From: Planotetraspora silvatica
GTDB lineage: Bacteria; Actinomycetota; Actinomycetes; Streptosporangiales; Streptosporangiaceae
NCBI RefSeq assembly: GCF_016863315.1
Contig: NZ_BOOQ01000012.1
Location: forward strand, 1 to 64,000
Length of the DNA: 64,000 nt
Direction of reading: 5' to 3'
The translations under genes were made by a program, and so were the position numbers. A model generated the notes under the pieces. That model was not told the DNA's origin. It ran no database searches and saw only the letters and a program-made list of their open reading frames with translations. How positions within the stretch are numbered: position 1 is the first letter of the stretch; the number at the start of each line of letters is the position of its first letter. Shown here piece after piece: positions 32,481 through 56,265 of this stretch.

Positions 32481-32565
32481 GGCAGGTTGCCCGAGTGGCC
32501 AAAGGGAGCGGTCTGTAAAACCGTCGGCTCAGCCTACGCAAGTTCGAACCTTGCACCTGCCACCA
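32481..32565 (+). tRNA. tRNA-Tyr (GTA), CCA encoded
   Basis: Acceptor GGCAGGT pairs with ACCTGCC; the anticodon arm GCGGT-CTGTAAA-ACCGT gives anticodon GTA; a long variable arm and the T-arm GCAAG-TTCGAAC-CTTGC follow, as in class II tRNA-Tyr. The 3' CCA is in the DNA. Its T-arm and 3' end are duplicated at 44296, marking it as an integration site. Confidence 0.95.
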
Positions 32566-32573
32566 GGGATTTT
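32539..32573 (+). repeat. Left att-like repeat (3' end of tRNA-Tyr)
   Basis: Thirty-five bases, from the last bases of the T-arm through CCA and into the flank (ends CACCAGGGATTTT), are identical to 44296-44330. Similarity continues with mismatches for about 90 more bases (for example GCCGCCGTTTGTCGC near 32640 and 44397). This is the pattern left by tyrosine-recombinase elements that use tRNA genes. Confidence 0.85.
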
Positions 32574-32581
32574 CCCAGCTC

Positions 32582-32604
32582 AGAGACCCTACGGGGTCTC
32601 TTTT
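32582..32604 (+). terminator. Intrinsic terminator of tRNA-Tyr
   Basis: AGAGACCC and GGGTCTCT form an eight-pair stem around TACG, followed directly by TTT. The copy near 44340 has lost the symmetry. Confidence 0.85.
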
Positions 32605-32954
32605 GCTTTTCAGGGACATGCAGCCGCAGGCCACTCTAGGCCGCCGTTTGTCGCCAATCGCGCAATATCCGCACAATGATCTTGGTGGGGGGATCGAGGG
32701 TGCGGCGGCTCGTGTCCCGGCCTTGATGGGAGCGTGCTCGGAGGATCGTGCCGAGATGTTCGCGGCCATCAGGAACTTTCCGGGGCACCGCCGACCCTGG
32801 AAATGAAAAAGTCCCGAGCCTGTGAACCGCAGAGATTCGGGACCGAGGTTGGTGTCCGAGGGGCGATCGCAACCATACGTCCATGGCGCGCCCCGCTCGG
32901 CGGGATCACGGTCCTCCTACGGCCCCCCGGCCTCAGTGGAGCTCTCAGCTTCGG
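32605..32954. other. Island left end, no gene seen, with LysR terminator
   Basis: About 350 bases between the tRNA terminator and the lysR stop. A minus-strand hairpin GTCCCGA/TCGGGAC (32811-32843) followed by TTTTT is a good terminator for lysR. No integrase or excisionase frame is visible. A minus frame through the tRNA is an artefact of the tRNA sequence. Confidence 0.6.
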
Positions 32955-33794
32955 TTAGAGGAGGGTGGCGGTGCGGACGAGGGCGGCGAGGGCCTGGGAG
33001 CGGCTGTGGGGAGGCCAGGCGATCACCGTGGTCACCTTCGGAGCGTCGAGGACGGGGACGGCGGCCAGGTCGCTGCGCAGGTGGGTCCGGCAGGACTCCG
33101 GAAGGACCGCCGCGGCCCGGCCGAGGGCGATCAGTTGGTACAGCTGCGCGGTGTCGCGGACCTTCGGGCCGGGGCCGTCGGTGTAGACGCCGACGCGGTC
33201 GGGCCAGCGGGGTAGCGGCAGGCCGGGCAGGTCGGTGACGTCGGCCATCTTCACATGAGGCCGGCTGAGGAGCTCGTGGCCGCGGGGCAGGATCGCGAGT
33301 TGGTTCTCGGTGTGCAGCTCCTCGGTGTCGAAGCCGAGCGTCGAGTCGAACGGGAGGTGCAGCAGCGCGACGTCGGCACGTCCGTCACGGAGCATGCGTT
33401 CCTGCTCGCCGACGCCGCAGAGCTGCACGTCGACGGTAACCGCGGAAGGGTCGGCGGCGTAGGCGTCGAGCAGCCTGGCCAGCAGTTCGCCGGCCGATCC
33501 GGCCTTGGTGACCAGGACCAGGCCTGGGTGGGGTTTCGCGGCGCGGCGGGTGCGGCGGTCGGCCGCCTCGACCGCGTCCAGGGCCGCCCGGCCCTCGCGG
33601 AGCAGGACGGATCCTGCCTCGGTCAGCGTGACGGCGCGGCTCGTCCGTTCCAGCAAGTCCACTCCGAGACGTCGCTCGAGCTGCTGGATCGCCCGCGACA
33701 GCGGCGGCTGGGCGATCCCCAGCCGTTCGGCGGCGCGCCCGAAGTGCAGTTCCTCGGCGACGGCGACGAAGTACCGCAATTCCCTCGACTCCAT
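32955..33794 (-). CDS. LysR-family transcriptional regulator
   Basis: A 279-residue regulator. N-terminal HTH: LRYFVAVAEELHFGRAAERLGIAQPPLSRAIQQLERRLGVDLLERTSRAVTLTEAG; then a periplasmic-binding-like effector domain. It is divergent from an SDR gene, with a perfect dyad between them, so it most likely controls that gene and itself. Confidence 0.92.
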   Translation of the reverse strand: MESRELRYFVAVAEELHFGRAAERLGIAQPPLSRAIQQLERRLGVDLLERTSRAVTLTEAGSVLLREGRAALDAVEAADRRTRRAAKPHPGLVLVTKAGSAGELLARLLDAYAADPSAVTVDVQLCGVGEQERMLRDGRADVALLHLPFDSTLGFDTEELHTENQLAILPRGHELLSRPHVKMADVTDLPGLPLPRWPDRVGVYTDGPGPKVRDTAQLYQLIALGRAAAVLPESCRTHLRSDLAAVPVLDAPKVTTVIAWPPHSRSQALAALVRTATLL

Positions 33795-33810
33795 GCCACC
33801 AGGCTATCCG

Positions 33811-33837
33811 GGATCGATACCTGTGAGGTATCGATCC
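33811..33837. promoter_or_regulatory. LysR operator dyad
   Basis: GGATCGATACCT and AGGTATCGATCC are exact 12-base inverted copies around GTG. The core contains the T-N11-A arrangement expected for LysR-type binding, 17 bases before the lysR start and 52 before the SDR start. Confidence 0.75.
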
Positions 33838-33888
33838 CCATCCAAACGGTGTTGGAACCCTCGCCGGGACGCGAAGCAGGATCGGAAC

Positions 33889-34620
33889 ATGACCGGACAG
33901 AAGATCGCGCTTGTCACCGGCGCGAACAAGGGGATCGGGTTTGAGATCGCTGCAGGCTTGGGCCGTCTCGGCTGGATCGTCGGCGTCGGCGCGCGCGACG
34001 CGGCGCGCCGACAAACCGCCGTGGAGAAGCTGAGCGCGGGCGGCGCCGACGTCTTCGGCGTCCCGCTGGACGTGACGGACGACGCAAGTGTGGCCGCCGC
34101 GGCAGCAATGCTGGAGGAGCGCTTCGAACGCCTCGACGTACTCGTCAACAACGCAGCCGTCACCGGCGGCATGCCCCAAGAACCCACCAACGTCGACATC
34201 GCGACGGTACTAACAGCCGTGGAGACCAACGTGATCGGCGTCATCCGCGTCACCAACACGATGCTGCCGCTGCTCCGCCGCTCGCCGTCACCCCGCATCG
34301 TGAACATGTCCAGCAGCGTCGGCTCCCTGACCCGCCAGACCTCCTCTACCGACCAGGGCTCCACAGGCCCCCTGTCAGCCGCCTACGCCCCCTCCAAGAC
34401 CTTCCTCAACGCCCTCACCATCCAGTACGCCAAGGAACTACGCGACACCAACATCTTGATCAACGCCGCCTGCCCCGGCTTCGTCGCAACCGACCTCAAC
34501 GCCTTCCGCGGCCACCGCACCCCAGAACAAGGCGCCGCAATCGGAATCCACCTTGCGACCCTCCCCGACAACGGCCCCACCGGCGGCTACTTCGAAGACG
34601 CCGGCGCAATCCCCTGGTGA
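33889..34620 (+). CDS. Short-chain dehydrogenase/reductase
   Basis: The 243-residue Rossmann protein has the cofactor motif ALVTGANKGIGFEIA, NNAAV in the fourth strand, catalytic Ser in IVNMSSSVGSL and YAPSK (Tyr and Lys). The GANKGIG form is that of carbonyl-reductase-like SDRs using NADP(H). Codon choice in its second half leans to C-ending codons but is not foreign. A terminator follows. Confidence 0.9.
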   Translation: MTGQKIALVTGANKGIGFEIAAGLGRLGWIVGVGARDAARRQTAVEKLSAGGADVFGVPLDVTDDASVAAAAAMLEERFERLDVLVNNAAVTGGMPQEPTNVDIATVLTAVETNVIGVIRVTNTMLPLLRRSPSPRIVNMSSSVGSLTRQTSSTDQGSTGPLSAAYAPSKTFLNALTIQYAKELRDTNILINAACPGFVATDLNAFRGHRTPEQGAAIGIHLATLPDNGPTGGYFEDAGAIPW

Positions 34621-34653
34621 CACGCCTGGCGCGACCCCGGAGAGGCCAGGGCG

Positions 34654-34694
34654 AAGAGGCCCCTGACCAGCGGAAACGTGGTCAGGGACCTCTT
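34654..34694 (+). terminator. Terminator after the SDR gene
   Basis: AAGAGGCCCCTGACCA and TGGTCAGGGACCTCTT form a 16-pair stem with one mismatch and a nine-base loop, starting 33 bases after the SDR stop. Confidence 0.8.
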
Positions 34695-34790
34695 GCTGCA
34701 TGTCCGGGCTACGCACCCGCCGATCCGTGGACTACGCACCCGCCGACCGTGCGCAACTCTCCGCCAACCTCGCCCGATCATGACAAAGTA

Positions 34791-35180
34791 CTACGAGGCC
34801 AGGGTCACGATCTGGATCAGGTTCCCGCAGGTGTCGTCGAAGACCGCCATGGTCACCGGCCCTGCCTCCATCGGCTCCTGTGTGAACGTCACCCCCAGCC
34901 CGCGCAGCCGCTCGTACTCCGTCTGCACGTCCGCGACCTGGAACGAGGCGGCCGGAATGCCGTCGGCAACCAGCGCCTCCTTGTACGGCTTGACCGCGGG
35001 GTGCCCGTCCGGCTCCAGCAGCAACTCCGTGCCCCCGGGGTCCTCCGGTGAGACGACCGTCAGCCACCGGGCCTCACCCAGCGGGATGTCGTGCTTCTTG
35101 GTGAAGCCGAGCACCTCGGTGTAGAAGTCGAGGGCCTTTTGCTGGTCGTCAACGAACACGCTGGTGACGTAGATCTTCAC
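34791..35180 (-). CDS. VOC/glyoxalase-fold protein
   Basis: From the GTG at 35180 the 129-residue protein reads VKIYVTSVFVDDQQKALDFYTEVLGFTKKHDIPLGEARWLTVVSPED and ends TMAVFDDTCGNLIQIVTLAS, a single vicinal-oxygen-chelate module of the DUF/extradiol type. Function unknown. It is coupled (GTGA overlap) to the ArsR-type regulator upstream, a common pair in actinomycetes not tied to arsenic. Confidence 0.85.
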   Translation of the reverse strand: MKIYVTSVFVDDQQKALDFYTEVLGFTKKHDIPLGEARWLTVVSPEDPGGTELLLEPDGHPAVKPYKEALVADGIPAASFQVADVQTEYERLRGLGVTFTQEPMEAGPVTMAVFDDTCGNLIQIVTLAS

Positions 35181-35464
35181 GGTGCCTGTCCTTTCCTGGT
35201 GACCGGCCACCGCTCGAAGATGGCGGCCAGGGGAGTGGTGTCGAGGTGGTGGAACTTGTACCGCCCCTGCTTGCGCGTCGTGATCAGCCCGGCCTCCTCC
35301 AGCACCGCCAGATGCTGGGATACGGCCTGCCGGGTCAGGCTCAGCTGATGTCGACTCGTCAGGCGGACACAGATCTCGAAGAGGGTCTGGCCGTCGCGCT
35401 CGGTCAGCTCGTCGAGGATGGTTCGCCGGGTGGGGTCGGCGAGGGCCTTGAAGACATCGCCCAT
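35177..35464 (-). CDS. ArsR-type winged-helix regulator (not arsenic-type)
   Basis: ATG at 35464 begins MGDVFKALADPTRRTILDELTERDGQTLFEICVRL; a TTG six codons upstream is an alternative. The recognition region is QLSLTRQAVSQHLAVLEEAGLITTRKQGRYKFHHLD. It lacks the CVC As(III) motif, so despite the family name it should respond to something else, perhaps the substrate of the VOC protein. Confidence 0.88.
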   Translation of the reverse strand: MGDVFKALADPTRRTILDELTERDGQTLFEICVRLTSRHQLSLTRQAVSQHLAVLEEAGLITTRKQGRYKFHHLDTTPLAAIFERWPVTRKGQAP

Positions 35465-35557
35465 GCGGGCGAGGATAGGCAAGCCGTCACTTGCCTGTCA
35501 ATCCATCCTCCGGCGGGGGCACTCCGGCTCCGGGATGATCGCCAAGACAGGGGAGGG

Positions 35558-35624
35558 TCCGTAGGCGGCTGAGGTAGAGCCGCGCATCCCTCCACCCATC
35601 GACCCAGGCGGAGCCCAGCAGACT
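35558..35624 (-). repeat. Dispersed repeat, copy 1
   Basis: About 67 bases, including CATCGACCCAGGCGGAGCCC, are roughly 80 percent similar to 43845-43911 (CATCGACCCAGGCAGAGCCC). Both lie in non-coding DNA inside the island. Origin unknown. Confidence 0.6.
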
Positions 35625-35651
35625 CCGCGTGGTTGGTGCGTACGGTTTCGA

Positions 35652-36410
35652 TCAGCGCCGTCGGCGACGCAAGTCGATCAGGCATGCGTGTGCCATGGCC
35701 GCGAACTCCGGGTGTCGTGTCGCGATGACCCGCTCGAATGCGGCTTCGGCGTCCGCGACCCGGCCCGTGGCGAACCAGAGGGCACCAAGCTGGGTCAGGG
35801 CTCCCGGCGACTCGTCGGGATGACCTGAATCCACCGCGCGCTGCAACGCGCGCATCGCCTCTTCGGTATGGCCCTCTCTGGAGAGCAGGCCACCCAGATT
35901 GAAAGCCCCTTTCGGCGAGGCCTCCGGGTGTCCCGACTCCATGGCGATGGTCAGGAGGGCTCGGGCCTGCTCGGTGTCGCCTTCGTGAAACAGGATGATC
36001 CCCAGGTTCAACGCGGCCATCGCCGCCGCATCGGAATTGGGAAAATCCATGGCCATCCGGTACGCGTGCTGGGCACCGCGCGCATCACCGCGGGATTCCA
36101 ACACCAAGCCCAGATCGAAGGCTGCCATCCCGGCGGCCGATGACCTGCCCTCGACCGCGATCACGCGCAGCATTTCCTCCGCCGCGGCGATGTCGCCTTT
36201 CTCGTAGGTGTTCCTCGCCACTGCGATCGCGAGGACCTCGACGTCGGAACTGCTCACCCGCTCAGCGGGGACACCCCGTTCCCGCGCCGCCGCCAGCAAG
36301 GAGTCAGAGAAAGAATCAGATGTGGCGGCCCGTCGTCGCCAACGTCCCGGCCACCACCGCATCCCTTGTCCACCCCTTCGGCTAAGGGCCCTGTCCCATC
36401 CTTCAGTCAC
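35652..36410 (-). CDS. TPR/Sel1-like repeat protein
   Basis: The 252-residue protein is a series of about 36-residue helical hairpins: AFDLGLVLESRGDARGAQHAYRMAMD, ALNLGIILFHEGDTEQARALLTIAMESGHPEASPKGAFNLGGLLSREGHTEEAMRALQRAVDSGHPDESPGAL and AFERVIATRHPEFAAMA. Such repeats bind partner proteins. There is no enzyme domain and no signal peptide. The real start may be later than 36410, because the first 30 residues are Arg/Trp-rich and weakly coding. Confidence 0.75.
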   Translation of the reverse strand: MTEGWDRALSRRGGQGMRWWPGRWRRRAATSDSFSDSLLAAARERGVPAERVSSSDVEVLAIAVARNTYEKGDIAAAEEMLRVIAVEGRSSAAGMAAFDLGLVLESRGDARGAQHAYRMAMDFPNSDAAAMAALNLGIILFHEGDTEQARALLTIAMESGHPEASPKGAFNLGGLLSREGHTEEAMRALQRAVDSGHPDESPGALTQLGALWFATGRVADAEAAFERVIATRHPEFAAMAHACLIDLRRRRR

Positions 36411-36922
36411 TCCCTCTGCGGGTCAACACAAACCGGGAGTGGCCGAAGACCGATGGACAAACACATGAACGGATGTCCTGGAGTCCAGGTTGCGCGCAAG
36501 CTCACCGGTCTCCTGTGGGGCGTACGTCACGAGACGACTCGGACCCGCACCGCTCGTGGGCAGAGGGGGCCCGCGGGGACGGGAGTGCGAGTCGCTGCAC
36601 GGCCGCTCGCTCTATCTACCGGCGACCCGTGGGCGGGTGCCGACATGCGGGCCTTCTCATGGATGCGGAGCCTGGGGGAGCGTTCGCACTCTCTCGGCGT
36701 AGCCAGCGACCAGTACGGATACCACCTCGACCGGTGTCTGGAGTCGATGTTCCCTAGCCGTGGTCAACTCCGTCTCGGCCCAGGCTGACCCAACTATCGT
36801 CACATCGATGCATTGACCAGTTACCGGCCACAAGGACACAAGTCGGCGCGTCTCCTCCCAATGCGCAATGCGTGCAGGCATACAACCGGGCCTGTCATCG
36901 TCGATCGACTTGGGAGATCCGC
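36411..36922. other. No supported gene
   Basis: About 510 bases. Several short frames cross it but none has a ribosome site, coding bias or a recognisable product. It must hold the promoters of the TPR gene and of the beta-propeller gene. Confidence 0.5.
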
Positions 36923-38239
36923 ATGCTTGCGCGGTGGAAGAGAAATATGGCGCAGAATCGTTGTCCAGAGCTGCCCGGCGGGCGCCATGAGCGCGGGCGG
37001 GGATTCCGAATCCGGCCAGTGGTGGCCGCGGCCGCCATCGCGATGGGGCTGGCGCCGCTGGCGGCAGTGGCCGGTCCCGCTCTGGCTGGGCCGAGGCCCG
37101 TGCCGGGAGAATTCGCCTACGTCAACAACAACGGCAACAGCACCGTGTCGCGGCTCAACACCACGACCAACACCATCGTCGCCACCATCCCCCTGCCTGC
37201 CGGGGCCAATACGATCGGGTCGGAGGTCACGCCGAACGGCGCCTTCTACTACGTGGCCAACGCCGGCATCGACAACGTCACGAAGATCAACACCGTGACC
37301 AACAGAATCGTCGCCGTCATCCACCTCCCAGCGGGAGCCGCTCCCAACGGGGTGGGGATCACGCCCGACAGCGCCTTCATCTACTCCACCAACAAGGGCA
37401 ACAACACCGTCTCGAAGATCAGCGTCGCCACCAACACCGTCGTCGCCACCATCCCCCTCCCCCCGGGGTCCGCTTCCGAGTCAGTGGCGGTCACGCCGAA
37501 CGGTGCCTTCGCCTACGTCTCCAACAGCGGCACCAGCACCGTCTCGAAGATCAGCGTCGCCACCAACACCGTCGTCGCCACCATCCCCCTCCCCGCCGGG
37601 AGCGCTCCTCGGGGGGTGAAGATCACGCCGAACGGTGCCTTCGTCTACATCGCCGACAACGGCAACGCCACCGTGTCGAAGATCAGCACCGCGACCGACA
37701 CCGTCGTCGCCAACATCTCCGTCGGAACCGGTCCGACCTGGCTGGGGATCACGCCGGACAGCGCCTTCACCTACGTCTCCAACAACGGCAGCAACACCGT
37801 CTCGAAGATCAGAGTCGCCGACGACATGGTCGTCGCCACCATCCCCGTCGGGATCGGTCCCAGGGGAATGTGGATCAACATCGGCGGCACCCAGGTCTAC
37901 GTGGCCAATCATGACAGCGACTCGGTGTCGGTGATCAATGTCGCCACCAACGCCATCGACGCGACCATCAACTTCCCCGCTGGGGCCGGTCCCGAAGGAG
38001 TGGCGTTCGGGCGCCACCCCGTTCCTGTGAAGGCGACCAAGACTCACAGCTCAACCTCCGGCGGCATCGTCAGAAGCAAGCACACGAACTTCACCGGCAT
38101 CGTCGCCACCGGGGGCAGCGGGGACAAGGTCAGCAAGAAACTGGCCGGCGTCGACTCCTTCGTGCAGCAGTTGAAGCAACGCCACCTCAACAACCCTGCC
38201 CTCACCAAGCATGTGATGGGCGCCGGGCAACACGGCTGA
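36923..38239 (+). CDS. Secreted YVTN-repeat beta-propeller protein
   Basis: GGGAG seven bases before the ATG at 36923 supports this start (438 residues). A basic stretch and hydrophobic helix (PVVAAAAIAMGLAPLAAVAGPALA) form a signal peptide. About seven 43-residue repeats follow, each like AYVNNNGNSTVSRLNTTTNTIVATIPLPAG, ending near residue 365; a short Lys-rich tail follows. Proteins of this YncE-like kind are export- or surface-located; ligand unknown. Two repeats are almost identical at DNA level. Confidence 0.82.
   Translation: MLARWKRNMAQNRCPELPGGRHERGRGFRIRPVVAAAAIAMGLAPLAAVAGPALAGPRPVPGEFAYVNNNGNSTVSRLNTTTNTIVATIPLPAGANTIGSEVTPNGAFYYVANAGIDNVTKINTVTNRIVAVIHLPAGAAPNGVGITPDSAFIYSTNKGNNTVSKISVATNTVVATIPLPPGSASESVAVTPNGAFAYVSNSGTSTVSKISVATNTVVATIPLPAGSAPRGVKITPNGAFVYIADNGNATVSKISTATDTVVANISVGTGPTWLGITPDSAFTYVSNNGSNTVSKIRVADDMVVATIPVGIGPRGMWINIGGTQVYVANHDSDSVSVINVATNAIDATINFPAGAGPEGVAFGRHPVPVKATKTHSSTSGGIVRSKHTNFTGIVATGGSGDKVSKKLAGVDSFVQQLKQRHLNNPALTKHVMGAGQHG
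37405..37594 (+). repeat. Near-identical internal repeats in the beta-propeller gene
   Basis: Fifty-eight bases starting CACCGTCTCGAAGATCAGCG recur exactly at 37405 and 37537, 132 bases (44 codons) apart. The identity at silent sites means recent duplication or gene conversion of one propeller blade. Confidence 0.9.
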
Positions 38240-38266
38240 CGCCGTCAGGGACAAACCATCACCAAG

Positions 38267-38297
38267 CGCCCCCTGACCTCTTTGCGGGAAGGGGGCG
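38267..38297 (+). terminator. Terminator after the beta-propeller gene
   Basis: CGCCCCCT (38267) pairs with AGGGGGCG (38290), followed by TCCTCTTT. Confidence 0.7.
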
Positions 38298-38409
38298 TCC
38301 TCTTTCGCATCTGCTGTGTGTGGACGACCGGTAGCCGATCCCGATCGAACCCGGCTCTTCCGGTCTCGGCCGGGGACGGAGGGGATGGTCAGGTGAACGT
38401 GCGACCGTG

Positions 38410-39660
38410 TTACTTGGCCCCCGCGATGGTGCTGCGGCGTTCGATGAAGACGACGTCGCGCCAGCGGTCGTGATGGCGGCCGATGCGCTGGCGGGTGCCG
38501 ACGGTGCGGAATCCGGCCCTTTCGTGGAGGCGGAGACTCACGGCGTTCTCGGGGAAGATGCCGGATTGGATGGTCCAGATGCCTACGGTCTCGGTGGACT
38601 GAACAAGGGCCTTCAGCAGCGCGGTGGCGATTCCGCGGCCCCCGTGATCAGGGTGAACGTAGACAGAGTGCTCGACCACTCCGGCGTAGACGCATCGGTC
38701 GGATACGGCGCTTGCGGCGATCCAGCCCACTACCTGTCCAGTCGAACTGTCGGCGGCGACATGGCGGTGTTCGGGCAGCTTCGCCCGATCGAACGCCTGC
38801 CAGCTCGGCGCGGTGGTCTCGAAGCTGGCGTTGCCGCTGTCGAGTCCGGCTTGGTAGATGTCGAGCACCTGTCCGGCGTCGTCGGCGCTCATGGGACGGA
38901 TGATGATCCCGGGCGGTGCCGTCGGCTTGCTAGCCCGGATGATCGCTGAGTGGAGACCGTCGGCTGCCGGCTGGGTGCGTGTGATCGTGTAGGTGGTGAA
39001 CCCGGCGGCTGCCAGCAGAGCGCGGTATTCCGCTTCGGCCAGGGTGCCGACCGAGCAGCCGACGAGGTGTTCGGCTTCTGCGCGCTGTGCGGGGTCGAGT
39101 CCGTCGTCCGCGATGACGTCACTGATGCCGAGTCTGCCGCCGGGCTTGAGTACGCGGAATGCTTCAGCCAGGACACGGGGTTTGTCGGCGGACAGGTTGA
39201 TCACGCAGTTGGAGATGATCACGTCGATGCCGGCGTCGGGGAGAGGAATGTCCTCGATGTGGCCGTGCAAGAACTCGACGTTGGTGGCTCCGGCTTCGGC
39301 GGCGTTGGCTCTGGCCAGGGTGAGCATGTCCGGGGTGGCATCCAAGCCGTACGCCTTACCGGCGGGGCCGACTCTGCGGGCCGAGAGCAGGACGTCGATG
39401 CCTCCGCCTGAGCCTAGATCGAGGACGGTTTCCCCTGGTTGGAGGTCGGCGACGGCGACGGGGTTTCCGCATCCCAGGCTGGCGCGGACGGCTCCCTCGG
39501 GGAGCTCCCCGGTGTCGCTGTAGGCGGCGGCCCCGAATCCGCCGTCGTTGAACTGCTGTGGTTCGCAGTCGACGATCTGGAGTTGGGCTTGGGCGGCGCG
39601 GGCGAGCCGGCCGTAGCGTTCGATGATGGTTGCTCGGACCTTGTCGGCGTCTTCGGGCAT
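38410..39660 (-). CDS. arsM: ArsM arsenite methyltransferase fused to a GNAT acetyltransferase (ArsN1-like)
   Basis: GGAGGACAC precedes the ATG at 39660. Residues 1-245 are an ArsM-type SAM methyltransferase: VLDLGSGGGIDVLLSARRVG is the SAM loop, and the four family cysteines are present (Cys32 in VDCEP, Cys64 in LGCGNP, Cys152 in SNCVINLS, Cys202 in VGCSVG). Residues 252-416 are a GNAT domain with VYVHPDHGGRGIATALLKALV and the phosphinothricin/arsinothricin-acetyltransferase-like ending AGFRTVGTRQRIGRHHDRWRDVVFIER. Known ArsM makes methylated arsenicals from As(III); known ArsN1 acetylates arsinothricin. One polypeptide doing both is inference. It follows arsR by 11 bases. Confidence 0.88.
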   Translation of the reverse strand: MPEDADKVRATIIERYGRLARAAQAQLQIVDCEPQQFNDGGFGAAAYSDTGELPEGAVRASLGCGNPVAVADLQPGETVLDLGSGGGIDVLLSARRVGPAGKAYGLDATPDMLTLARANAAEAGATNVEFLHGHIEDIPLPDAGIDVIISNCVINLSADKPRVLAEAFRVLKPGGRLGISDVIADDGLDPAQRAEAEHLVGCSVGTLAEAEYRALLAAAGFTTYTITRTQPAADGLHSAIIRASKPTAPPGIIIRPMSADDAGQVLDIYQAGLDSGNASFETTAPSWQAFDRAKLPEHRHVAADSSTGQVVGWIAASAVSDRCVYAGVVEHSVYVHPDHGGRGIATALLKALVQSTETVGIWTIQSGIFPENAVSLRLHERAGFRTVGTRQRIGRHHDRWRDVVFIERRSTIAGAK

Positions 39661-39671
39661 GTGTCCTCCGG

Positions 39672-40007
39672 TCAACAGGCGCAGCCTGGCGGGGAAACGG
39701 GATGGCCCATGACCACGTCGGCGGCCGTGGGGAAGGCCCCGATGCACGCCTTGTTGATCTCATACAGGCTGGACGTGCCGCGACGCTCGACCAGGACGAA
39801 TCCCACCTCGGCCAGCACCTTCAAATGCGCGGACACGGTCGACTGCCCGACGTCGACCGCCGCGACGATCTCCTTGACCGACATGGGTGTCTGGCGGCGG
39901 GCGAGCAGGGTGACGATCTGGATGCGCGTGGCGTCCGCCAATGCCTTGAACCACGAGGCGTACGTCGCTGCGGTCGCCCGGTCAAGCGGTCCTGTTCCCT
40001 CGTTCAT
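39672..40007 (-). CDS. arsR: ArsR-family regulator with C-terminal Cys pair
   Basis: A 111-residue winged-helix protein: WFKALADATRIQIVTLLARRQTPMSVKEIVAAVDVGQSTVSAHLKVLAEVGFVLVERRG. It lacks the CVC motif in helix 3, but has Cys in NKACIGAF and ends PPGCAC, so As(III) or methylarsenite would bind at a different site than in classical ArsR. First gene of the arsR-arsM/N operon; a dyad overlaps its start codon. Confidence 0.88.
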   Translation of the reverse strand: MNEGTGPLDRATAATYASWFKALADATRIQIVTLLARRQTPMSVKEIVAAVDVGQSTVSAHLKVLAEVGFVLVERRGTSSLYEINKACIGAFPTAADVVMGHPVSPPGCAC

Positions 40008-40031
40008 CGTTCATCGACGATAAACGATGAA
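40003..40031. promoter_or_regulatory. Operator dyad at the arsR-arsM/N promoter
   Basis: TTCATCGTT and AACGATGAA are exact inverted copies 11 bases apart, overlapping the arsR start codon (40005-40007). This is the form and place of ArsR/SmtB operators. A transcript starting here would be nearly leaderless. Confidence 0.75.
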
Positions 40032-40120
40032 GCCGGCCTCGGGAAGGGGGTCGACTGATTGCCTTCACCAACCTGATCCGTGGCCAGGCCGGTGGCCTTC
40101 TTCGTGGCGATGCGTCGGTG

Positions 40121-41377
40121 TCAGTGGGCGGGGACGAGTTCGGCGAGGAGTTCCGTGACGCGCTTGTCGATCTCGTCGCGGATGGGGCGGACCTGGTCGA
40201 CCGGCTTGCCGGCGGGGTCGTCGAGTGCCCAGTCCAGGTATCGCTTTCCGGGGAAGATCGGGCAGGCGTCTCCGCATCCCATGGTGATGACGACGTCGGC
40301 GGCCTGGACCGCTTCGGTGGTGAGCGGCTTGGGGAACTCCTTGGTCAGGTCGAGGCCGAGTTCCTCCATGACCTGGATGACAGCGGGGTTGATGGTGTCG
40401 GCGGGGGCTGAGCCGGCGGAACGGACGCGGACCTTGCCTTGGGCGTGGTGATCGAGCAGGGCGGCGGCCATCTGGGAGCGTCCCGCGTTGTGCACACAGA
40501 CGAACAGCACCTCGGGGATATCGGACACAAGTGCTCCTTGAGCTTGGCCTGTGGCGCGTAGCCGGTCGTCGGCGAGCCGCACGGCCAGGGTGGGCAGGTG
40601 AGTGTGGATGCGGGCTGGGGCATCGGAAGGCTCGTGGGAGGAGATGGGGAGTGCAGGGTTCTGCGTGACCGGTTCACGGTCGGTGGCCCGTCGCGTCGGA
40701 TGGAGGCTGGTGACGAGGACGGCACCAAGCGCAGCGCCGACGAGTTGGGCGGCGATGAATGCCGGGATGGATGCGGGGGCGATCCCGGCGAAGGTGTCGG
40801 AGAATCCGCGGGCGATCGTCACGGCGGGGTTGGCGAAGCTGGTCGAGCTGGTGAACCAGTACGCGGCCCCGATGTAGGCGCCGATGACCGGCGGGGCCAG
40901 ATGCGCGCGCCCTTGTCGCGGCAAGGCGACAACGAGGGCGACGAGGCCGGCCGTCGCGACGACCTCTCCCACCCACAAACCAAGCGATGACCGGTCATGG
41001 GTTGAGACACTCACGGCGGGCAGGTCGAACATCGCATTGGCGAGCATCGTGCCGGCGATCCCGCCGATGGTCTGCGCGGGCAGGTAGGCGGCCACATCCC
41101 GTGCGGTGAGTCCGACGCGGTCTCGGCGGCCGAGCAACCAGTCCACCAGGGACACCACCGGGTTCAGATGCGCCCCGGAGACCGGACCAACCAGCACGAT
41201 GATGACCGGCAGGGCGGCGGCCGTGGCCGCGCTGTTGGCGAGCAGTTGCACACCGACGTCAGGCGACAGGCGCGCGGCCATGATTCCGGACCCGACTACG
41301 ACTGCGACCAGCAGGCCCGTGCCGAGAGACTCGGCGAAGGCGCGCCGGATGAGGCTGGGAGCCTCGCACGTGCTCAT
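40121..41377 (-). CDS. Aquaglyceroporin-arsenate reductase fusion (AqpS-ArsC type)
   Basis: Residues 1-225 are a MIP channel with both pore motifs, AHLNPVVS (72-74) and FANPAVT (183-185). After a polar linker, residues 288-418 are a low-molecular-weight-phosphatase-type ArsC: CVHNAGRS (C-x5-R, Cys294/Arg300) and MGCGDACP (Cys368, Cys372). Channel-enzyme fusions of this kind are known in actinobacteria: arsenate is reduced in the cell and arsenite leaves through the channel. The ATG overlaps the arsR stop (ATGA). There is no arsB or acr3 nearby, so this is the only visible arsenite exit. Confidence 0.92.
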   Translation of the reverse strand: MSTCEAPSLIRRAFAESLGTGLLVAVVVGSGIMAARLSPDVGVQLLANSAATAAALPVIIVLVGPVSGAHLNPVVSLVDWLLGRRDRVGLTARDVAAYLPAQTIGGIAGTMLANAMFDLPAVSVSTHDRSSLGLWVGEVVATAGLVALVVALPRQGRAHLAPPVIGAYIGAAYWFTSSTSFANPAVTIARGFSDTFAGIAPASIPAFIAAQLVGAALGAVLVTSLHPTRRATDREPVTQNPALPISSHEPSDAPARIHTHLPTLAVRLADDRLRATGQAQGALVSDIPEVLFVCVHNAGRSQMAAALLDHHAQGKVRVRSAGSAPADTINPAVIQVMEELGLDLTKEFPKPLTTEAVQAADVVITMGCGDACPIFPGKRYLDWALDDPAGKPVDQVRPIRDEIDKRVTELLAELVPAH

Positions 41378-41763
41378 GCCGGGGCGCCGGCCAGAGCGGA
41401 CGTGGGGCTGAGCAGGGCGGACATCCGGGCCAGGACATTCGGGTTGATCCAGTAGTAGACCCAGGTGCCCCGGCGTTCGGAGTCGATCAGCCCGGCCTGC
41501 TTGAGCACCTTGAGATGGTGGCTGATCGTCGGCGCGGTCAGATCGAACGCGACGGTCAGATCACACACGCACGCCTCGCCGCCCTCATGGCAGGCGATCA
41601 GCGACAGCAAGCGCAGCCGTACCGGGTCGGCGATCGCCTTGAACAGCGGAGCAAGCTCCGTCGCCTCGGCCTCGTTCAGCGGTTCACAGACCAAGGGCGC
41701 GCAGCACGCCTCGGCCGATACCTGAACACCCACGTCCACGATCGGCAACTCTTGCTTCGACAT
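41374..41763 (-). CDS. arsR: ArsR-family As(III)-responsive repressor
   Basis: From ATG 41763, 129 residues. It carries an N-terminal Cys cluster (AEACCAPLVCEPL) and the classical helix-3 site EACVCDLTVAFDLTAPTISHHLKVLKQAGLI, where the CVC cysteines bind As(III) and release DNA. It heads the operon with the AqpS-ArsC gene and is divergent from the small Cys protein and arsI. Confidence 0.92.
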   Translation of the reverse strand: MSKQELPIVDVGVQVSAEACCAPLVCEPLNEAEATELAPLFKAIADPVRLRLLSLIACHEGGEACVCDLTVAFDLTAPTISHHLKVLKQAGLIDSERRGTWVYYWINPNVLARMSALLSPTSALAGAPA

Positions 41764-41770
41764 GTCTCTA

Positions 41771-41835
41771 ATTTGACAGATATCTATGTACGAGTGCAAG
41801 CTGAGCCCAGCATGCTACTTAGACATCTATCAAAT
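41771..41835. promoter_or_regulatory. Paired operator half-sites in the divergent ars promoter
   Basis: ATTTGACAGATATCT (41771) and, on the other strand, ATTTGATAGATGTCT (41835-41821) match at 12 of 15 bases and face each other across the intergenic region, one near each start. One repressor could shut both directions. Confidence 0.7.
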
Positions 41836-41847
41836 CAGGAGAGTGTG

Positions 41848-42027
41848 ATGGCCTATCGACTTTCCGCCCTGATGCGCAGGACCACCGGCAAGGCCGGTCG
41901 AGTTCGCGGTCCGGTGATCTTCAACGAGGCCACCGGAGAAGTCTGCGACGGTGCCTGCCGCAGTGACGCCCGACTCGATCGGGCCCGCACGTTCGCCATC
42001 TCGGCCACCCTCGGCTACCGCCGTTGA
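41848..42027 (+). CDS. Small 59-residue Cys-containing protein, first gene of the arsI operon
   Basis: An ATG with AGGAGAG seven bases upstream opens MAYRLSALMRRTTGKAGRVRG and continues NEATGEVCDGACRSDARLDRARTF. The C-x3-C pair and the ars context suggest a metalloid-binding or chaperone role, but I recognise no family. It ends 44 bases before arsI on the same strand. Confidence 0.6.
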   Translation: MAYRLSALMRRTTGKAGRVRGPVIFNEATGEVCDGACRSDARLDRARTFAISATLGYRR

Positions 42028-42071
42028 CCTGGCCCACCCATCCGATCCGCCTCACCTTCAGGAGGAACGCC

Positions 42072-42530
42072 ATGTCCCGTGTTCAGCTCGCCCTCCGTGT
42101 CGCCGACCTGGAAGGCTCCGTCGCCTTCTACTCCAAGCTGTTCGGCGTCGAGCCGGCCAAGCGTCGGCCCGGCTACGCCAACTTCGCCATCACCGAGCCC
42201 CCGCTGAAGCTCGTGCTTCTGGAAGGTGAGGACGGAGAGCCGACCCGCATGGATCACCTCGGCGTCGAAGTCGAAGACACCAGTCAGGTCACCGCCGCGA
42301 CCGACCGACTCAAGGAAGCCGGCCTCGCGACGTTCGAGGAGAACGACACCACCTGTTGTTACGCAGTCCAGGACAAGGTGTGGGTCACCGGTCCCGGCAG
42401 TGAGCCGTGGGAGGTCTACGTGGTCAAGGCCGACGCCGACAGCTTGACCAAGGAAACAGCCACCGTCTGCTGCACTCCCGCAGGCGCCACCCACGAGGCC
42501 CCGACGGCCGCCGCGTCCTCCTGCTGCTGA
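42072..42530 (+). CDS. arsI: ArsI/CadI-family VOC protein, probable C-As lyase
   Basis: AGGAGG precedes the ATG. The 152-residue protein has a VOC fold and the ArsI marks: vicinal Cys95-Cys96 in NDTTCCYAVQDKVWV, and candidate Fe(II) ligands Gln5, His62 and Glu114. Known ArsI enzymes split methylarsenite to As(III). The C-terminus adds two further CC pairs (TVCC and SSCC), a metal-binding tail. A strong terminator follows. Confidence 0.9.
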   Translation: MSRVQLALRVADLEGSVAFYSKLFGVEPAKRRPGYANFAITEPPLKLVLLEGEDGEPTRMDHLGVEVEDTSQVTAATDRLKEAGLATFEENDTTCCYAVQDKVWVTGPGSEPWEVYVVKADADSLTKETATVCCTPAGATHEAPTAAASSCC

Positions 42531-42541
42531 CAAGGCACCAG

Positions 42542-42576
42542 CCGGCGATCACCTGTTCCCCGCGGGTGATCGCCGG
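42542..42576 (+). terminator. Terminator after arsI
   Basis: CCGGCGATCACC and GGTGATCGCCGG form a perfect 12-pair stem with an 11-base loop, 11 bases past the stop. Confidence 0.85.
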
Positions 42577-42741
42577 ACCTCACTCCTGCCTGTCCTCGAC
42601 CGCGTCTCGGGTTGGGCCGGTGTGCTGGGCCAGCGGAAAGTGAGCAAGACCATTGACGTGGGGTCATCGTGAATACCGAATTCCGAAATCACGCCAATCG
42701 AGGATGCAACGACGCCCCGATGCAGGGAATGTCCCGTAGCG

Positions 42742-43531
42742 TCAGGTGACAAAAGCGCATTGGACCCGAGCAGCGAGAGAAAAGGTGCTGCCGCCGTTGT
42801 TGAATGCCTGCACCGACCATATATCCGCTGTCAAGTTTGATTGGTTCTCTGAGACTGAGATGCTGGTGACTGTACCGGATGTGCCGTAACCACCGCCGAG
42901 TACTCGTTTCCCTGCAGGGCAGAATGCCGTAGCAGAACAGAATCCCCCAGCAGGGCACGATGCCTGCGTCCCAGTTATGAGTTGGTAGCCCGAGACTCCT
43001 GGCGGGCCCGTGGCGCCTTGCGGACCTCGCGGACCTGTGGCGCCTGGATCGCCTTGCGGACCCTGCTCGCCGGCGGGGCCTGAATCGCCTTGCGGTCCCT
43101 GTGCACCTGTGGCACCCCGGAACGCCCTGCGGACCCCGCGCGCCTGCGGGGCCTGGAACGCCTTGCGGGCCCCGTTCGCCTCGGGGACCTTGGGGACCTT
43201 GAGACGGTTGCATCGCCTCCGGGCCCGTCGCGCCCTTCTGGAGCGGCGTCACAACGTCAGTGAAGTCGCGCAGTAGATGCTGATCCTGGCGCTCATGCTG
43301 GCGCCCGTGTTGACGCTGTTTGTGCCTGTTGTGGTTCTTGTTCGAGTTCCTGGTCGAACCTGGCGTGGAAACGACTGAGTGATCCGGGGCGCTTTCGACG
43401 GCCGCACTGGCGGAGGTGGCAGCGATGGTGCCCCCCAGGGCGACGGCACCTGTGCTCAATACGGCACTGATCGCAAAGGCACTGAGAAGGCTGCTGGGCT
43501 TGGGCAACTGAATTTCCCCTTGAAAGGACAT
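42742..43531 (-). pseudogene. Secreted collagen-like (Gly-X-Y) protein gene with a frameshift
   Basis: The first frame (ATG 43531) gives a signal peptide ending SASA, a His/Arg/Gln-rich stretch and GPQGPRGERGPQGVPGPAG repeats, then loses sense after GVPG. Removing one G in the GGGG run (43115-43118) restores a clean frame: GATGAQGPQGDSGPAG repeats, then a compact Cys-containing domain (SCPAGGFCSATAFCPAGKRVLGGG ... ARVQCAFVT) and a stop at 42742. Thus the gene is interrupted by a one-base insertion, or the base is an assembly error. Unshifted, the frame would run to 42689 with nonsense sequence. Confidence 0.75.
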
Positions 43532-44005
43532 GTCGTCCTGGACTTCCAGCGTGCTCCAGATTCACAGGGAAGCTATCGGCATTGACCGTCCAGTACGATG
43601 CGTCTCGCATTGCCTTGGTTGCCGCGCAGTCGAGCAGTAAACGCCTGCTGGTGACTCCACCTTTTCTTTGGTGTTTTCTTAATGGCAGCCGATCGCTTCG
43701 TCCTTTTTGTTCCCGATTACCACCGTGGCCCCATGTCTACTGGTCCTCGGCGGACGCCCGAGAGAGAGTGAGAGGCGGGGAAGTGCCGGGAAGACCTCGG
43801 GGCGCTCAAGCTCCGAGAGAGGGACGCCCGCGCAGCATGGCGGGGCCGTAGCCGGCTGAGGTGGAGGTCCTGATCGCTCGCCTGTCATCGACCCAGGCAG
43901 AGCCCGGCAGACCGGAGATCAGGGCAGGGGAAGAGTGTGCGAGTCCGCGCATGACGGTGAGCGCTGGTATTGGCACGCCTCCTCCAGATCAATACGATCG
44001 GCCGC
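43532..44005. other. No supported gene; holds dispersed repeat copy 2
   Basis: About 470 bases with T-rich stretches near 43660-43710 (promoter side of the collagen-like gene). Positions 43845-43911 repeat 35558-35624. No coding frame is convincing. Confidence 0.5.
43845..43911 (-). repeat. Dispersed repeat, copy 2
   Basis: Partner of 35558-35624, same orientation; about 80 percent similar by eye with one small gap. Confidence 0.6.
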
Positions 44006-44275
44006 ATGGCCGGTATAGGTGCGCCTGAGCTCGTAATCATTGCTTTAGTCCTCGTGCTAGCCGGCTGTTTCATCGGCTTCGTCATCTTCGTGAGTGGGAG
44101 GGTCGCGAGAGCGCGCAGACCGTTCGACGGCAGCGTTTCGCACGGCTCTTTCGATCTTGCAACGAAGGTTCGCGGTCTGAAATCTCAGGGACGGTACGAG
44201 CAGGCTGTGCTTCTCGTTCGGGGTGAAACCGGCTTTGGTGAAGAGGAGGCGCGCTCGTTCGTGGACCGCGCATGA
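44006..44275 (+). CDS. Small membrane protein, unknown
   Basis: From the ATG at 44006, 89 residues: a hydrophobic helix (APELVIIALVLVLAGCFIGFVIFVSG) and a soluble tail with DLATKVRGLKSQGRYEQAVLLVRGETGFGEEEARSFVDRA, a helical pattern like that of ribosomal L7/L12-type C-terminal motifs in many small actinobacterial membrane proteins. An ATG at 43970 would add 12 residues. It is the last gene of the island, 20 bases before the right repeat. Confidence 0.6.
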   Translation: MAGIGAPELVIIALVLVLAGCFIGFVIFVSGRVARARRPFDGSVSHGSFDLATKVRGLKSQGRYEQAVLLVRGETGFGEEEARSFVDRA

Positions 44276-44295
44276 TCGGACGCCTCGGCCGGTCT

Positions 44296-44330
44296 CAAGT
44301 TCGAACCTTGCACCTGCCACCAGGGATTTT
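44296..44330 (+). repeat. Right att-like repeat (tRNA-Tyr 3' fragment)
   Basis: Identical over 35 bases to 32539-32573. Only the T-arm and acceptor 3' half with CCA are present; there is no tRNA upstream, so this is not a functional gene. The following 90 or so bases resemble the tRNA downstream flank at about 70 percent. Confidence 0.85.
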
Positions 44331-44594
44331 GCCAGCTCAGAGGCCCTACGGGGTGCTTTTACCTTCCAGGGGAATGCGGCCGTAGGTCACCGCGAGCCGC
44401 CGTTTGTCGCTGGTCCCGGAATATGTCCGGAATGGATCATGGCCTGTTTCCCCAGGTCGCGAACCATGATCCGGAAGGGTTGCGGAAGCTCATGGAACGA
44501 CGAAGGGGCCCCGGGAGCAGTCTCCCAGAGCCCCATGTCCAACTCGCGATCACACCACCAGGGCGCCCACGCGAGCGTGGCGGCGTGGCAGTGC
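44331..44594. other. Degenerate tRNA flank and hairpin, no gene
   Basis: Contains the diverged copy of the tRNA downstream region and a hairpin, GGGGCCCCGGGAG with CTCCCAGAGCCCC (44505-44534), that may terminate the cupin gene from the right. No coding frame supported. Confidence 0.55.
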
Positions 44595-45053
44595 CTAGCC
44601 GACGGGGGGCGGCCCGGCGACTCGCACGTGGTAGGACTCGGCAGAGGCGATGATCGCCTCGATGTCGAAGGGGGCCGGGGCCTCAGCGACGCCGGTGACG
44701 GGTGAACCGTTGGCCGTGAACCAGTCTTCGACGCGAGAGGGGGAGAAGACGGCGGCGAGGCGGGCGGTCTTGGTGCGGACCAGGTAGCTGTGTGCGACGC
44801 CGCGCGGGCCGTGTGCCGCCTGGCCGGGTTCCAGATCGAACCGCTGGTCGCCGACGAAGAAGGTCACCTTTCCGTCCAGGACGATCCAGACCTCCTCCTC
44901 GTCCTCGTGGATGTGGAGCGGCGGCGCGTGGCCGGCCGCGTCCGTGAACTCCATGACCGAGAGGGAGCCGTTCGTGGCGTGTCCGGGCACCAAGACGCGG
45001 GCCTGTCCGCCGAGGAACCAGAACGGCTCCGTGGCGTTGCGTGGGGTGATCAT
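44595..45053 (-). CDS. Cupin-domain protein
   Basis: The 152-residue protein has a cupin motif 1 (HAPPLHIHEDEEEVWIVLDGKVTFFVGDQ, with metal-binding His/His/Glu) and motif 2 (GPRGVAHSYLV). It resembles quercetinase-like or storage cupins; substrate unknown. Its ATG overlaps the stop of the hydrolase upstream. Confidence 0.82.
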   Translation of the reverse strand: MITPRNATEPFWFLGGQARVLVPGHATNGSLSVMEFTDAAGHAPPLHIHEDEEEVWIVLDGKVTFFVGDQRFDLEPGQAAHGPRGVAHSYLVRTKTARLAAVFSPSRVEDWFTANGSPVTGVAEAPAPFDIEAIIASAESYHVRVAGPPPVG

Positions 45054-46051
45054 GAGGACCTCAGGAAGTCGAGGAGGATGTGGGTCATCTTGGCCGGTTG
45101 CTCCTCGTAGAGCCAGTGGCCGGAATCGGGGACGACGACGCCGGTGACGTTCTTCGCGTACCGCTTCACCTGGTCGGGCACGGAGGAACCGAGGCTGCCG
45201 GAAGCGCCGATCGCGAGCACGGGCATGGTGAGCTTGTGCTTGCGGTAGACGGCGTTATCCACCATGTCCTGCGGCAACGTACGGAACCACGCGAGGCTCG
45301 CCTTCAGGTGCGCCTTGTCCCGCAGGTAGCCGGCGAAGACCGAAACATCGTCCGGCGTGACGGCGCCCCGCTTGACCTCGAGATTCTCGATGAATTTGCC
45401 GGTCCACACGGTCTCGCGGCCACTGATGAGGTCTTCGGGCAGGCCGTTGGCGAGTGCGAAGAAGCCGAAGTGCCACGCGCCGGGACCGTCCGCGGTCAGT
45501 GACGGGAAGGAGTAGATGCCGGGATCGGGGATCGGCGCCTCGCTGAGTACCAGTTTCCGCACGTCCGCCGGATGCGCGGCGGCATAGGAGTACGCGACCA
45601 TCGTGCCGATGTCGTGCCCGACGATGCGGAGATCCTTGTCCCGTCCGAGTCGGACCAGCAGCGCGTGCAGTTCCGCGGCCATCGTCTTCTTGTCGTAGCC
45701 GGCCGCCGGGGCGTCGCTGCGTCCGGCGCCGGGCAGGTCGGGGGCGATGACCGTGTAATGCTCGGCCAGGGCCGGCATGATGTGCCGCCACTCGTACCAG
45801 GTCTGCGGGTATCCGTGGATCAGGACCAGAGTCGGTCCGTGGCCGCCGATCACGTAGTCGATGCCGACCGAGCCGGCCTGCACCTTGTGTTCTGAGAATC
45901 CGGCGGGCATCTGCTCCTTCACGGAGCGGGCGGACGTCGGCGAAGCGGCGCTCACCGGCCCGGTGACGACGACGGATGCCAGTCCGACGGCCGCGGCCAC
46001 GGCGAGCAGCGCCAGACCGCGCGGTCTGGACAAGCTGAGGGAGGGAAGCAT
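45050..46051 (-). CDS. Exported alpha/beta hydrolase, epoxide hydrolase/dehalogenase-like
   Basis: A 333-residue protein with an N-terminal signal-like helix (GLALLAVAAAVGLASVVVTGPVSA). Catalytic features: oxyanion HGYPQTWYEWR, nucleophile Asp in RIVGHDIGTMVAY, and a C-terminal His in VVPDSGHWLYEEQP. Asp rather than Ser as nucleophile points to the epoxide hydrolase/haloalkane dehalogenase branch. Operon with the cupin. Confidence 0.87.
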   Translation of the reverse strand: MLPSLSLSRPRGLALLAVAAAVGLASVVVTGPVSAASPTSARSVKEQMPAGFSEHKVQAGSVGIDYVIGGHGPTLVLIHGYPQTWYEWRHIMPALAEHYTVIAPDLPGAGRSDAPAAGYDKKTMAAELHALLVRLGRDKDLRIVGHDIGTMVAYSYAAAHPADVRKLVLSEAPIPDPGIYSFPSLTADGPGAWHFGFFALANGLPEDLISGRETVWTGKFIENLEVKRGAVTPDDVSVFAGYLRDKAHLKASLAWFRTLPQDMVDNAVYRKHKLTMPVLAIGASGSLGSSVPDQVKRYAKNVTGVVVPDSGHWLYEEQPAKMTHILLDFLRSS

Positions 46052-46089
46052 CGATGGCTCCAGGGTGAAGAGATGGTGAGCGGTCGACG

Positions 46090-46173
46090 TCAGAGCGTGC
46101 TGACGAGACCGCCGTCGATGGTGAAGCCGGCGCCGGTGACGATCACGGTCCTGCCGGTCAGTCCAAGATCCAT
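46090..46173 (-). pseudogene. Internally deleted SDR gene, 27 codons left
   Basis: An ATG with an AGAGGA site opens MDLGLTGRTVIVTGAG, the N-terminal cofactor motif of a short-chain dehydrogenase, which joins in frame to FTIDGGLVSTL and a stop, the standard SDR C-terminus. The roughly 220 residues in between are missing. Both ends remain intact, so this looks like a clean in-frame deletion. The peptide cannot be an enzyme. Confidence 0.8.
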
Positions 46174-46203
46174 GGCGGATCCTCTTGAAGGAGCGGGACG
46201 GTC

Positions 46204-47001: not shown

Positions 47002-47192
47002 GGTGCCTCCAAATGTGTTCTTGTCTGTCGCAGCAGGAGAACACCGGCACCGGAGGCTTCGTATCAGGGAAAGACCACAGTCCCCCCACGTCGCTTGCCA
47101 GAGGCGATGTGGTTTCCTAACTTCGGAGCGCATGAGGTCTTCCGCCCGGTTTCCGGCGGAATGCTCATGTCGGAGGTGACAAGCAGCGCTCC

Positions 47193-50006: not shown

Positions 50007-50036
50007 GCCTCGCCCGGCGCAACCCTGGGACCGACG

Positions 50037-50055
50037 ACTAGGGATCGTCCCTAGT
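50037..50055. promoter_or_regulatory. Perfect dyad upstream of the XRE-STAND gene
   Basis: ACTAGGGA and TCCCTAGT are exact inverted copies around TCG. The site lies 30 bases after the LAL stop and about 190 before the next start; it could be an operator for the downstream gene. Confidence 0.5.
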
Positions 50056-50242
50056 GTCCAGGTCGGGCGCCGGGTGCTTCGATTGATCGAGGATTGTCGG
50101 TTCACGCGACCGGCCGCTGCGCTATGCGATGTCGGTGTTGCACAAGCTGTCGGCGCCGGCGCACGACTCGCCTGTGGTGCTCGTGGTTGATCGACGCCTC
50201 CGTGATGGCCTTCGTGGGTCATGGACCCACAGCTGAGAAGGA

Positions 50243-52528: not shown

Positions 52529-52639
52529 GTGTGGAACTTCTTCCTGCTGTTGTGCATGGTCTGGTTCCTTCCGCGCGACTTGGATTGAACGCACAGGACA
52601 GGCGTCAAGCCTGTCCGTCCATCCACGTCAGGAGCGACC

Positions 52640-56094: not shown

Positions 56095-56265
56095 CCAAAG
56101 CAGACCAGGAATGTCCACCTCGCCTGAACGCCCCCGCACGTTCCTCGATCGGGACCCGGGTGACGCTCCGGGAGGCGATGGAGACCGCCATGGTCGCGCT
56201 GGAGCACACGGTCGGCACGCCCCCGCCATGACGGGCCGGCTGGATCCTGCCCGCGCAGACAGCCG

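Follow-up and report, generated by a model that had tools for sequence, protein, structure and literature searches.

An arsenic-gene patchwork in a probable relic accretion hotspot of integrative elements at tRNA-Tyr of Planotetraspora silvatica

The stretch of DNA analysed here (the window, 64,000 nucleotides) comprises positions 1-64,000 of the 83,252-bp contig C12 of Planotetraspora silvatica, whose genome (G000) measures 8.66 Mb. Planotetraspora is a soil actinomycete of the family Streptosporangiaceae. Behind tRNA-Tyr, the sole tRNA that ARAGORN finds within the window, lie regulatory and metabolic genes, a cluster of arsenic resistance (ars) genes, a second copy of the tRNA 3' end and two sequences that we identify as P' arms of actinomycete integrative and conjugative elements (AICEs). 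An initial annotation had read 32.5-44.3 kb as one element bounded by attachment (att) sites. Comparison with related genomes, most of them drafts and including four other Planotetraspora genomes (the sisters, G001-G004), leads us to a different reading as the probable one: a relic AICE accretion hotspot at tRNA-Tyr, in which the DNA between and beyond the arms, ars genes included, is a patchwork. The features are collected in Table 1.

Table 1. Features of the tRNA-Tyr locus (positions in the window)
Feature	Position	Strand	Support or remark
tRNA-Tyr (GTA), intact, attachment gene	32481..32565	+	ARAGORN; Rfam tRNA 53.1 bits
Orphan AICE P' arm A, tRNA terminator and paired arm repeats, integrase lost	32566..32688	+	arm profiles
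LysR-type regulator	32955..33794	-	Pfam HTH_1, LysR_substrate
Short-chain dehydrogenase (SDR)	33889..34620	+	Pfam adh_short 136 bits; start chosen by eye within open reading frame (ORF) 33505-34620
Type II tRNA-Tyr flank-like sequence, no tRNA core	34654..34706	+	weak match, 78% over 55 columns (E 3e-4)
Glyoxalase-fold protein and ArsR-family regulator	34791..35482	-	Pfam, NCBIfam
Dispersed ~120-bp repeat, copy 1	35507..35623	+	
TPR protein	35652..36410	-	Pfam
Beta-propeller protein	36872..38239	+	Pfam Lactonase; NCBIfam TIGR02276
ArsM arsenite methyltransferase fused to ArsN1-like GNAT domain	38410..39747	-	NCBIfam
ArsR-family regulator	39672..40007	-	Pfam, NCBIfam
Aquaglyceroporin-arsenate reductase (MIP-ArsC) fusion	40121..41377	-	Pfam MIP 78.6, LMWPc 77.4 bits
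ArsR-family regulator	41374..41799	-	Pfam, NCBIfam
ArsI/CadI metalloenzyme	42024..42530	+	NF041414 205.7 bits, above cut-off 116
Second copy of the dispersed repeat; small ORF (43970-44275) resembling a membrane protein	43794..44295	+	
Truncated att core, last 27 tRNA-Tyr bases only	44296..44322	+	
Orphan AICE P' arm B, integrase lost; complete as far as the terminator preceding int in intact elements	44323..44536	+	arm profiles, alignment
Rest of strain-variable zone inside the window	44537..64000		ends near C12:70,730, outside the window

The last 27 bases of tRNA-Tyr and the 8 bases behind them form a 35-mer with exactly two copies on the + strand, at 32539 and 44296, and none on the other strand. 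The wider match around it (108 of 130 bp identical, 83%) has an E value of 2e-33 and is therefore not due to chance, and no tRNA body was found before the 44296 copy. The exact repeat and the bare second copy had both been pointed out before, and both observations hold.

The sequences behind the two copies are more informative than the copies themselves. A profile built from the 230 bases behind the tRNAs of 19 integrase-bearing loci, none from Planotetraspora, gave just two matches on the 83-kb contig, with everything up to E 10 counted, 44322-44536 (94.2 bits) and 32565-32688 (69.9 bits), while the best score in ten two-base-block shuffles was 8.8 bits. A second profile, made from the 13 loci left after removal of the six Tyr loci and therefore holding only other genera and non-Tyr tRNAs, matched at 44319-44535 (70.8 bits) and 32562-32686 (39.6 bits) and nowhere else (best shuffle 8.0). 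Since a profile without Tyr loci and from other genera matches both flanks, both are AICE P' arms, and an attL with its P' arm lies at the tRNA 3' end (32565-32688). The weaker similarity past the CCA, proposed earlier to have been carried in by a related element, is thus the P' arm of an AICE, and the same identification upholds tyrosine-recombinase integration, not tRNA duplication, as the origin of the repeat. In pSAM2, arm-type repeats beside the att core are bound by the integrase, according to PMC3364876. The paired repeats of arms A and B differ, so the two arms probably come from two different elements.

A flank similar to those of the window follows tRNA-Tyr in G002 and the distal tRNA-Tyr copies in G001, G003 and G004. 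Its presence behind tRNA-Tyr in several genera could suggest a conserved functional part of tRNA-Tyr, either a terminator or a small RNA, with 44296 as its duplication and no mobile element involved. This is very improbable: arm sequence also lies behind tRNA-Ser, tRNA-Arg, tRNA-Met and a tRNA-Lys-like end and beside tyrosine integrase genes, the non-Tyr profile matches both window copies, and in an Rfam scan the tRNA was the only credible match, with two others far below their gathering scores and neither at the arms. That this flank recurs beside integrases and behind tRNAs of other kinds also speaks against the flank at 32566 being native chromosome, a reading that would leave no room for any element.

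Related genomes hold counterparts in which the arm still adjoins an integrase gene. G009 has an AICE at a tRNA-Ser: the arm separates the tRNA from an integrase gene, and RepSA and FtsK/SpoIIIE genes come next. Of 150 genomes of the family, 106 have relatives of this integrase (E <= 1e-20). The 30 best-matching integrase loci, surveyed with an arm profile that included the window's own copies, comprised 19 with arm and tRNA gene, two with the arm only and nine with neither; the tRNAs at the 19, as called by ARAGORN, were Arg (8), Tyr (6), Ser (3), Lys (1) and His (1). G016, G009 and G031 each have a tRNA-Tyr with an arm and an integrase gene ending 224-235 bp behind the tRNA, adjoined in all three by RepSA (346-348 bits) and FtsK/SpoIIIE genes. 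PF00589 scores low for these integrases (27.8, 31.0 and 23.3 bits, respectively, with a cut-off of 27.1), and the frame in G031 is shorter (433 vs 454 aa). The displaced copy of G004 has a 337-codon integrase piece (int profile E 5e-176) ~0.6 kb past its arm.

Two other arrangements are of note. The AICE at tRNA-Ser(TGA) of G009 (G009:C20:94984-113543; L091, L092) belongs to a stacked pair: ~17 kb on lies a partial tRNA-Ser copy, and behind it a second arm and a piece of an integrase. Elsewhere in the genome of the window (G000:C65; L044 9004-10693) and in G002:C21 (L068 8980-10990), a cupin block is followed by a tRNA-Tyr core and a type II arm, in the reverse of the block order in the G001 tRNA-Tyr insert; either an attP joint or a tandem array that has been displaced may account for this.

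No AICE gene that we looked for was found on the window's contig. PF00589 does not reach E 0.001 anywhere on the 83,252 bp of C12, as against 23 places elsewhere in the genome, and the AICE int profile gave noise only (E 0.054) in a search that covers the tyrosine type, serine integrases not having been searched; the absence of a visible integrase, remarked on initially, is thereby confirmed. Six AICE gene profiles (int, repSA, traB, spd-like, gntR and nudix), built with G016 left out, recovered the G016 genes at E <= 6.5e-55 and found nothing on C12 (best E 0.054). The replication gene, sought as the RepSA type, was likewise not found (best E 0.054; RepAM and Prim-Pol types were not searched), and for an FtsK/SpoIIIE-like transfer gene the profile gave a best E of 0.2, with no FtsK among the Pfam matches of the proteins scanned. 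To look for integrase remnants beside the arms, seven complete or partial integrase proteins were compared by tblastn with the window, L045 and three spacers. The lowest E on the window among the matches listed was 1.6e-6; this match covers residues 2-61 of an ORF that, over its first 60 residues, seems to be read in another frame than the integrase. We read these matches as composition, because similar ones are scattered over the window. A 14-codon tail ending VV* before the 44.5-kb terminator was also considered as an int relic and is too short to call.

The copy at 44296 is damaged. It starts at tRNA base 59, while 15 of the 17 partial tRNA-Tyr copies counted in the 50 stretches compared start at bases 24-33 and that of G004:C62 starts at base 62. 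The anticodon loop is the usual region of integrase crossover. An old duplication of the tRNA-Tyr gene with later loss of its 5' part would account for the identity of the 3' ends, and yet we give it almost no credence, as 15 of the 16 other partial copies start around the anticodon loop, at bases 24-33, and the match on the 5' side is limited to one of 21 bases (E 0.05). A paired arm-type repeat, the P-arm motif, lies left of the three full-core copies that we read (G016, G009:C9 and G000:C65); it was not found in the 150 bases left of 44296, where a small ORF (43970-44275) without Pfam or NCBIfam match stands. Instead of an attR with full core and P arm, the site thus has a core from base 59 and no P-arm motif, and because of these two features it is probably no usable attR. 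Mobilisation in trans, one of the options in the initial annotation, would be unlikely to proceed through this copy for the same reasons. Further, the 390 bp ending at the joint (43907-44296) are 94% identical to G004:C4, where other DNA follows. The joint resembles an illegitimate junction formed inside an old att site.

The strain-variable DNA does not end at 44.3 kb. Left of tRNA-Tyr the chromosome is conserved with the sisters (85-92%), and core synteny returns at ~C12:70,730, before tRNA-Thr and tRNA-Met, in G001, G002 and G003, whereas the G004 contig ends ~20 kb past the tRNA. The zone between measures ~38 kb in G000 (32.57-70.73 kb), 35.5 kb in G001, 9.8 kb in G002 and 25.3 kb in G003. 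As it runs on to ~70.7 kb, the right boundary proposed earlier is internal to it. Conserved core on both sides with strain-specific content between, as found against three of the four sisters, together with several att remnants of the same core, is the picture of a tRNA-linked accretion hotspot. Inserts of ~3.2, 4.2 and 6.0 kb immediately follow the tRNA in G001, G003 and G004, respectively, and have a flank of another type (type II). The content between the two copies is accessory, as described earlier. As a unit, the stretch 32.5-44.3 kb is seen in no other of 17 genomes (own included) among the matches listed, the longest colinear piece found elsewhere being ~5.9 kb (G002:C22). The comparison of base composition that the initial annotation had called for shows a slight AT shift in 32.5-44.3 kb (GC 0.662, vs 0.685 left of the tRNA, 0.693 in the remaining variable zone and 0.681 beyond it), small and not decisive.

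The pieces that fill the zone have different affinities. LysR-SDR (32954-34653) is 98.6% identical to G003:C35, and because the local flank reaches 88% only, this points to a recent exchange as judged from sequence identity. The flank-like sequence at 34654-34706 begins where the match to G003 ends and is a possible further scar. The TPR gene is 94-96% identical to sequences in the tRNA-Tyr zone of G003 and on G004:C62, and 45.06-56.2 kb is 93-96% identical to the G001 zone and to G003:C47, which is not the contig that carries G003's whole zone. The dispersed, noncoding-looking repeat (up to ~130 bp; 35507-35623 and 43794-43914) occurs at 10 places in G000 and is present in all five Planotetraspora genomes and G016, several places being close to integrase relics. 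For a collagen-like ORF (42689-43531) the Pfam match is below cut-off; DNA related to it recurs at several Planotetraspora loci.

Among the island proteins scanned, the products of recognisable arsenic genes are encoded at 38.4-42.5 kb, between the repeat copies, as had been stated before. ArsM scores 269 bits with NF008823, above the cut-off of 263; its GNAT domain matches ArsN1a with 120 bits, below the cut-off of 170. For MIP-ArsC, the NCBIfam arsenate-reductase and MIP models match below their cut-offs. No arsenite efflux pump is present among the Pfam matches of the island proteins scanned. Judged from their families, the genes should form an ordinary detoxification set: arsenate reduction and release (MIP-ArsC), methylation (ArsM) and ArsI. 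ArsN1 is an arsinothricin-resistance acetyltransferase, and 445-aa frames matching the length of the window's ArsM-GNAT occur in G002, G003 and G004. MIP-ArsC is one frame in the window and two overlapping frames in G002 (L041 10388-11627).

In G002, G003 and G004 the ars block (36.7-42.6 kb) occupies other loci with different neighbours (G002:C22, G003:C18, G004:C9/C40), and it is rearranged in G003 and G004. The beta-propeller gene is a close neighbour of the ars genes in G002 and G004:C9; in G003 the two are some kb apart. The identity of the ars genes to those of the sisters is near that of the core (89-91 vs 88-92% for G003, 88-95 vs 92-93% for G004, 86 vs 87-92% for G002); a recent foreign origin is therefore not supported. 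Nor is an association of ars with tRNA-Tyr the rule, the two being near each other only in G000 and G016, 2 of 17 genomes among the matches listed. In G016, ars-like DNA lies ~24 kb from tRNA-Tyr, just outside the AICE's distal copy, and in G034 it is on the tRNA-Tyr contig, ~3.7 Mb away. The G016 locus (G016:C2:2233229 on; L062 8229-11297), from another genus, has its ars cluster directly outside the distal tRNA-Tyr copy.

The reading that we consider probable runs as follows. AICE tyrosine integrases would act on an attP that consists of a P arm, the 3' half of the tRNA and a P' arm, and recombine it into the tRNA gene; every insertion would rebuild the tRNA 3' end and set the element's P' arm and its own terminator directly behind. 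Several elements may have arrived and then decayed at tRNA-Tyr; the P' arms at 32566 and 44323 are the sole AICE remains found, and the integrase, RepSA and transfer genes sought are missing. What lies between the arms and past them, ars cluster included, would be a patchwork from separate exchanges within the 38-kb zone.

The boundaries drawn initially can be kept in a modified form, in which 32566-44295 is the rest of one AICE inserted in tRNA-Tyr before an older element; it would have lost int-rep-tra and gained the ars cargo, and 44296 would be its damaged attR. The order tRNA, P' arm, DNA, core, P' arm fits two stacked elements, and the TPR gene and other pieces are common to tRNA-Tyr zones. 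We nevertheless regard this as unlikely. All six AICE gene profiles are without match, 44296 has only 27 tRNA bases and no P-arm motif, the left side of its joint is joined to other DNA in G004:C4, and interior pieces occur at separate loci. Coverage of 80% of the stretch is reached by no plasmid record, and the 8 listed of 23 cover at most 14%; no phage record matches at megablast sensitivity; these comparisons also lend no support to a plasmid or phage origin of the stretch. Together with the extension of the zone to ~70.7 kb, the truncated core, missing P arm, scattered pieces and G004:C4 joint count against a single att-bounded element as first described.

Several observations weigh against the hotspot reading. 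The sequence tRNA, P' arm A, element A, core, P' arm B is the array expected of two stacked elements, and 44296 occupies the place expected for element A's attR; its truncated core and lack of a P arm argue against this but could be later damage. Truncated copies are not unique to the window: one of G004:C62 starts at base 62, and two weaker partial copies, below the threshold of our count, start at bases 38 (G001:C10) and 69 (G004:C62). The nine of 30 integrase loci with neither arm nor tRNA, within the ~1.5 kb of flank examined, belong here too. In G004 the arm is 77.7% identical to the window and the left flank 92.4%, which favours the hotspot reading, but arm turnover is not seen everywhere: in G001 it is the arm that is closer to the window (93% over 60 nt, vs 85% for the left flank), and for the remaining three sisters an intergenic arm is compared with a partly coding flank. 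Finally, the genomes being mostly drafts, loci on separate contigs could be closer than they appear.

Under the hotspot reading, the case is a heavily eroded example of a known phenomenon, AICE accretion at one tRNA, and is essentially ordinary. SLP1 of Streptomyces coelicolor reportedly targets tRNA-Tyr, the same target gene as at our locus. The AICEs of the pSAM2/RepSA type in tRNA genes, as described in PMC3218068 and PMC3364876, share the tRNA 3' core and adjoining arm repeats and have int directly behind, the int-repSA-tra set being kept in intact relatives; the window differs in that the AICE genes tested are all gone and arms only are left. Closely related integrases with different tRNA targets have been published (PMC3218068). 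Accretion of AICEs, with a remnant lacking traB, is described for a Streptomyces tRNA-Arg hotspot in PMC9513070. The likeness lies in stacked elements and remnants at one tRNA, while our case concerns tRNA-Tyr in Planotetraspora, is more decayed and has long filled-in DNA. Aquaporin-arsenate reductase fusions occur in Salinispora and mycobacteria, according to PMC9775063; they share with the window's protein the channel domain and C-terminal arsenate reductase, and the window's adjoins an ArsM-GNAT fusion. A limited literature search found no paper on this locus, and the available text of a Planotetraspora genome paper (PMC11431748) does not mention arsen, genomic island or integrase.

These results indicate that an exact repeat of a tRNA 3' end need not delimit an element, the diagnostic part being the arm behind the repeat. 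Where an integrase search finds nothing, an arm profile still detects the scars of dead AICEs, and it offers a practical test for 'islands without integrase' in actinomycetes. Arsenic resistance here sits in a patchwork hotspot and not on a recognisable transferable unit. Since elements with different tRNA target genes have the P' arm in common, orphan arms at many tRNAs might also act as standing homology anchors, at which unrelated cassettes such as ars are swapped by homologous recombination; we hold this to be quite unlikely, and if true, cassettes would be exchanged between tRNA zones and strains long after the elements had died.

Outside the zone, 16670-21980 of the window holds long genes with a strong AT skew (to -0.38).

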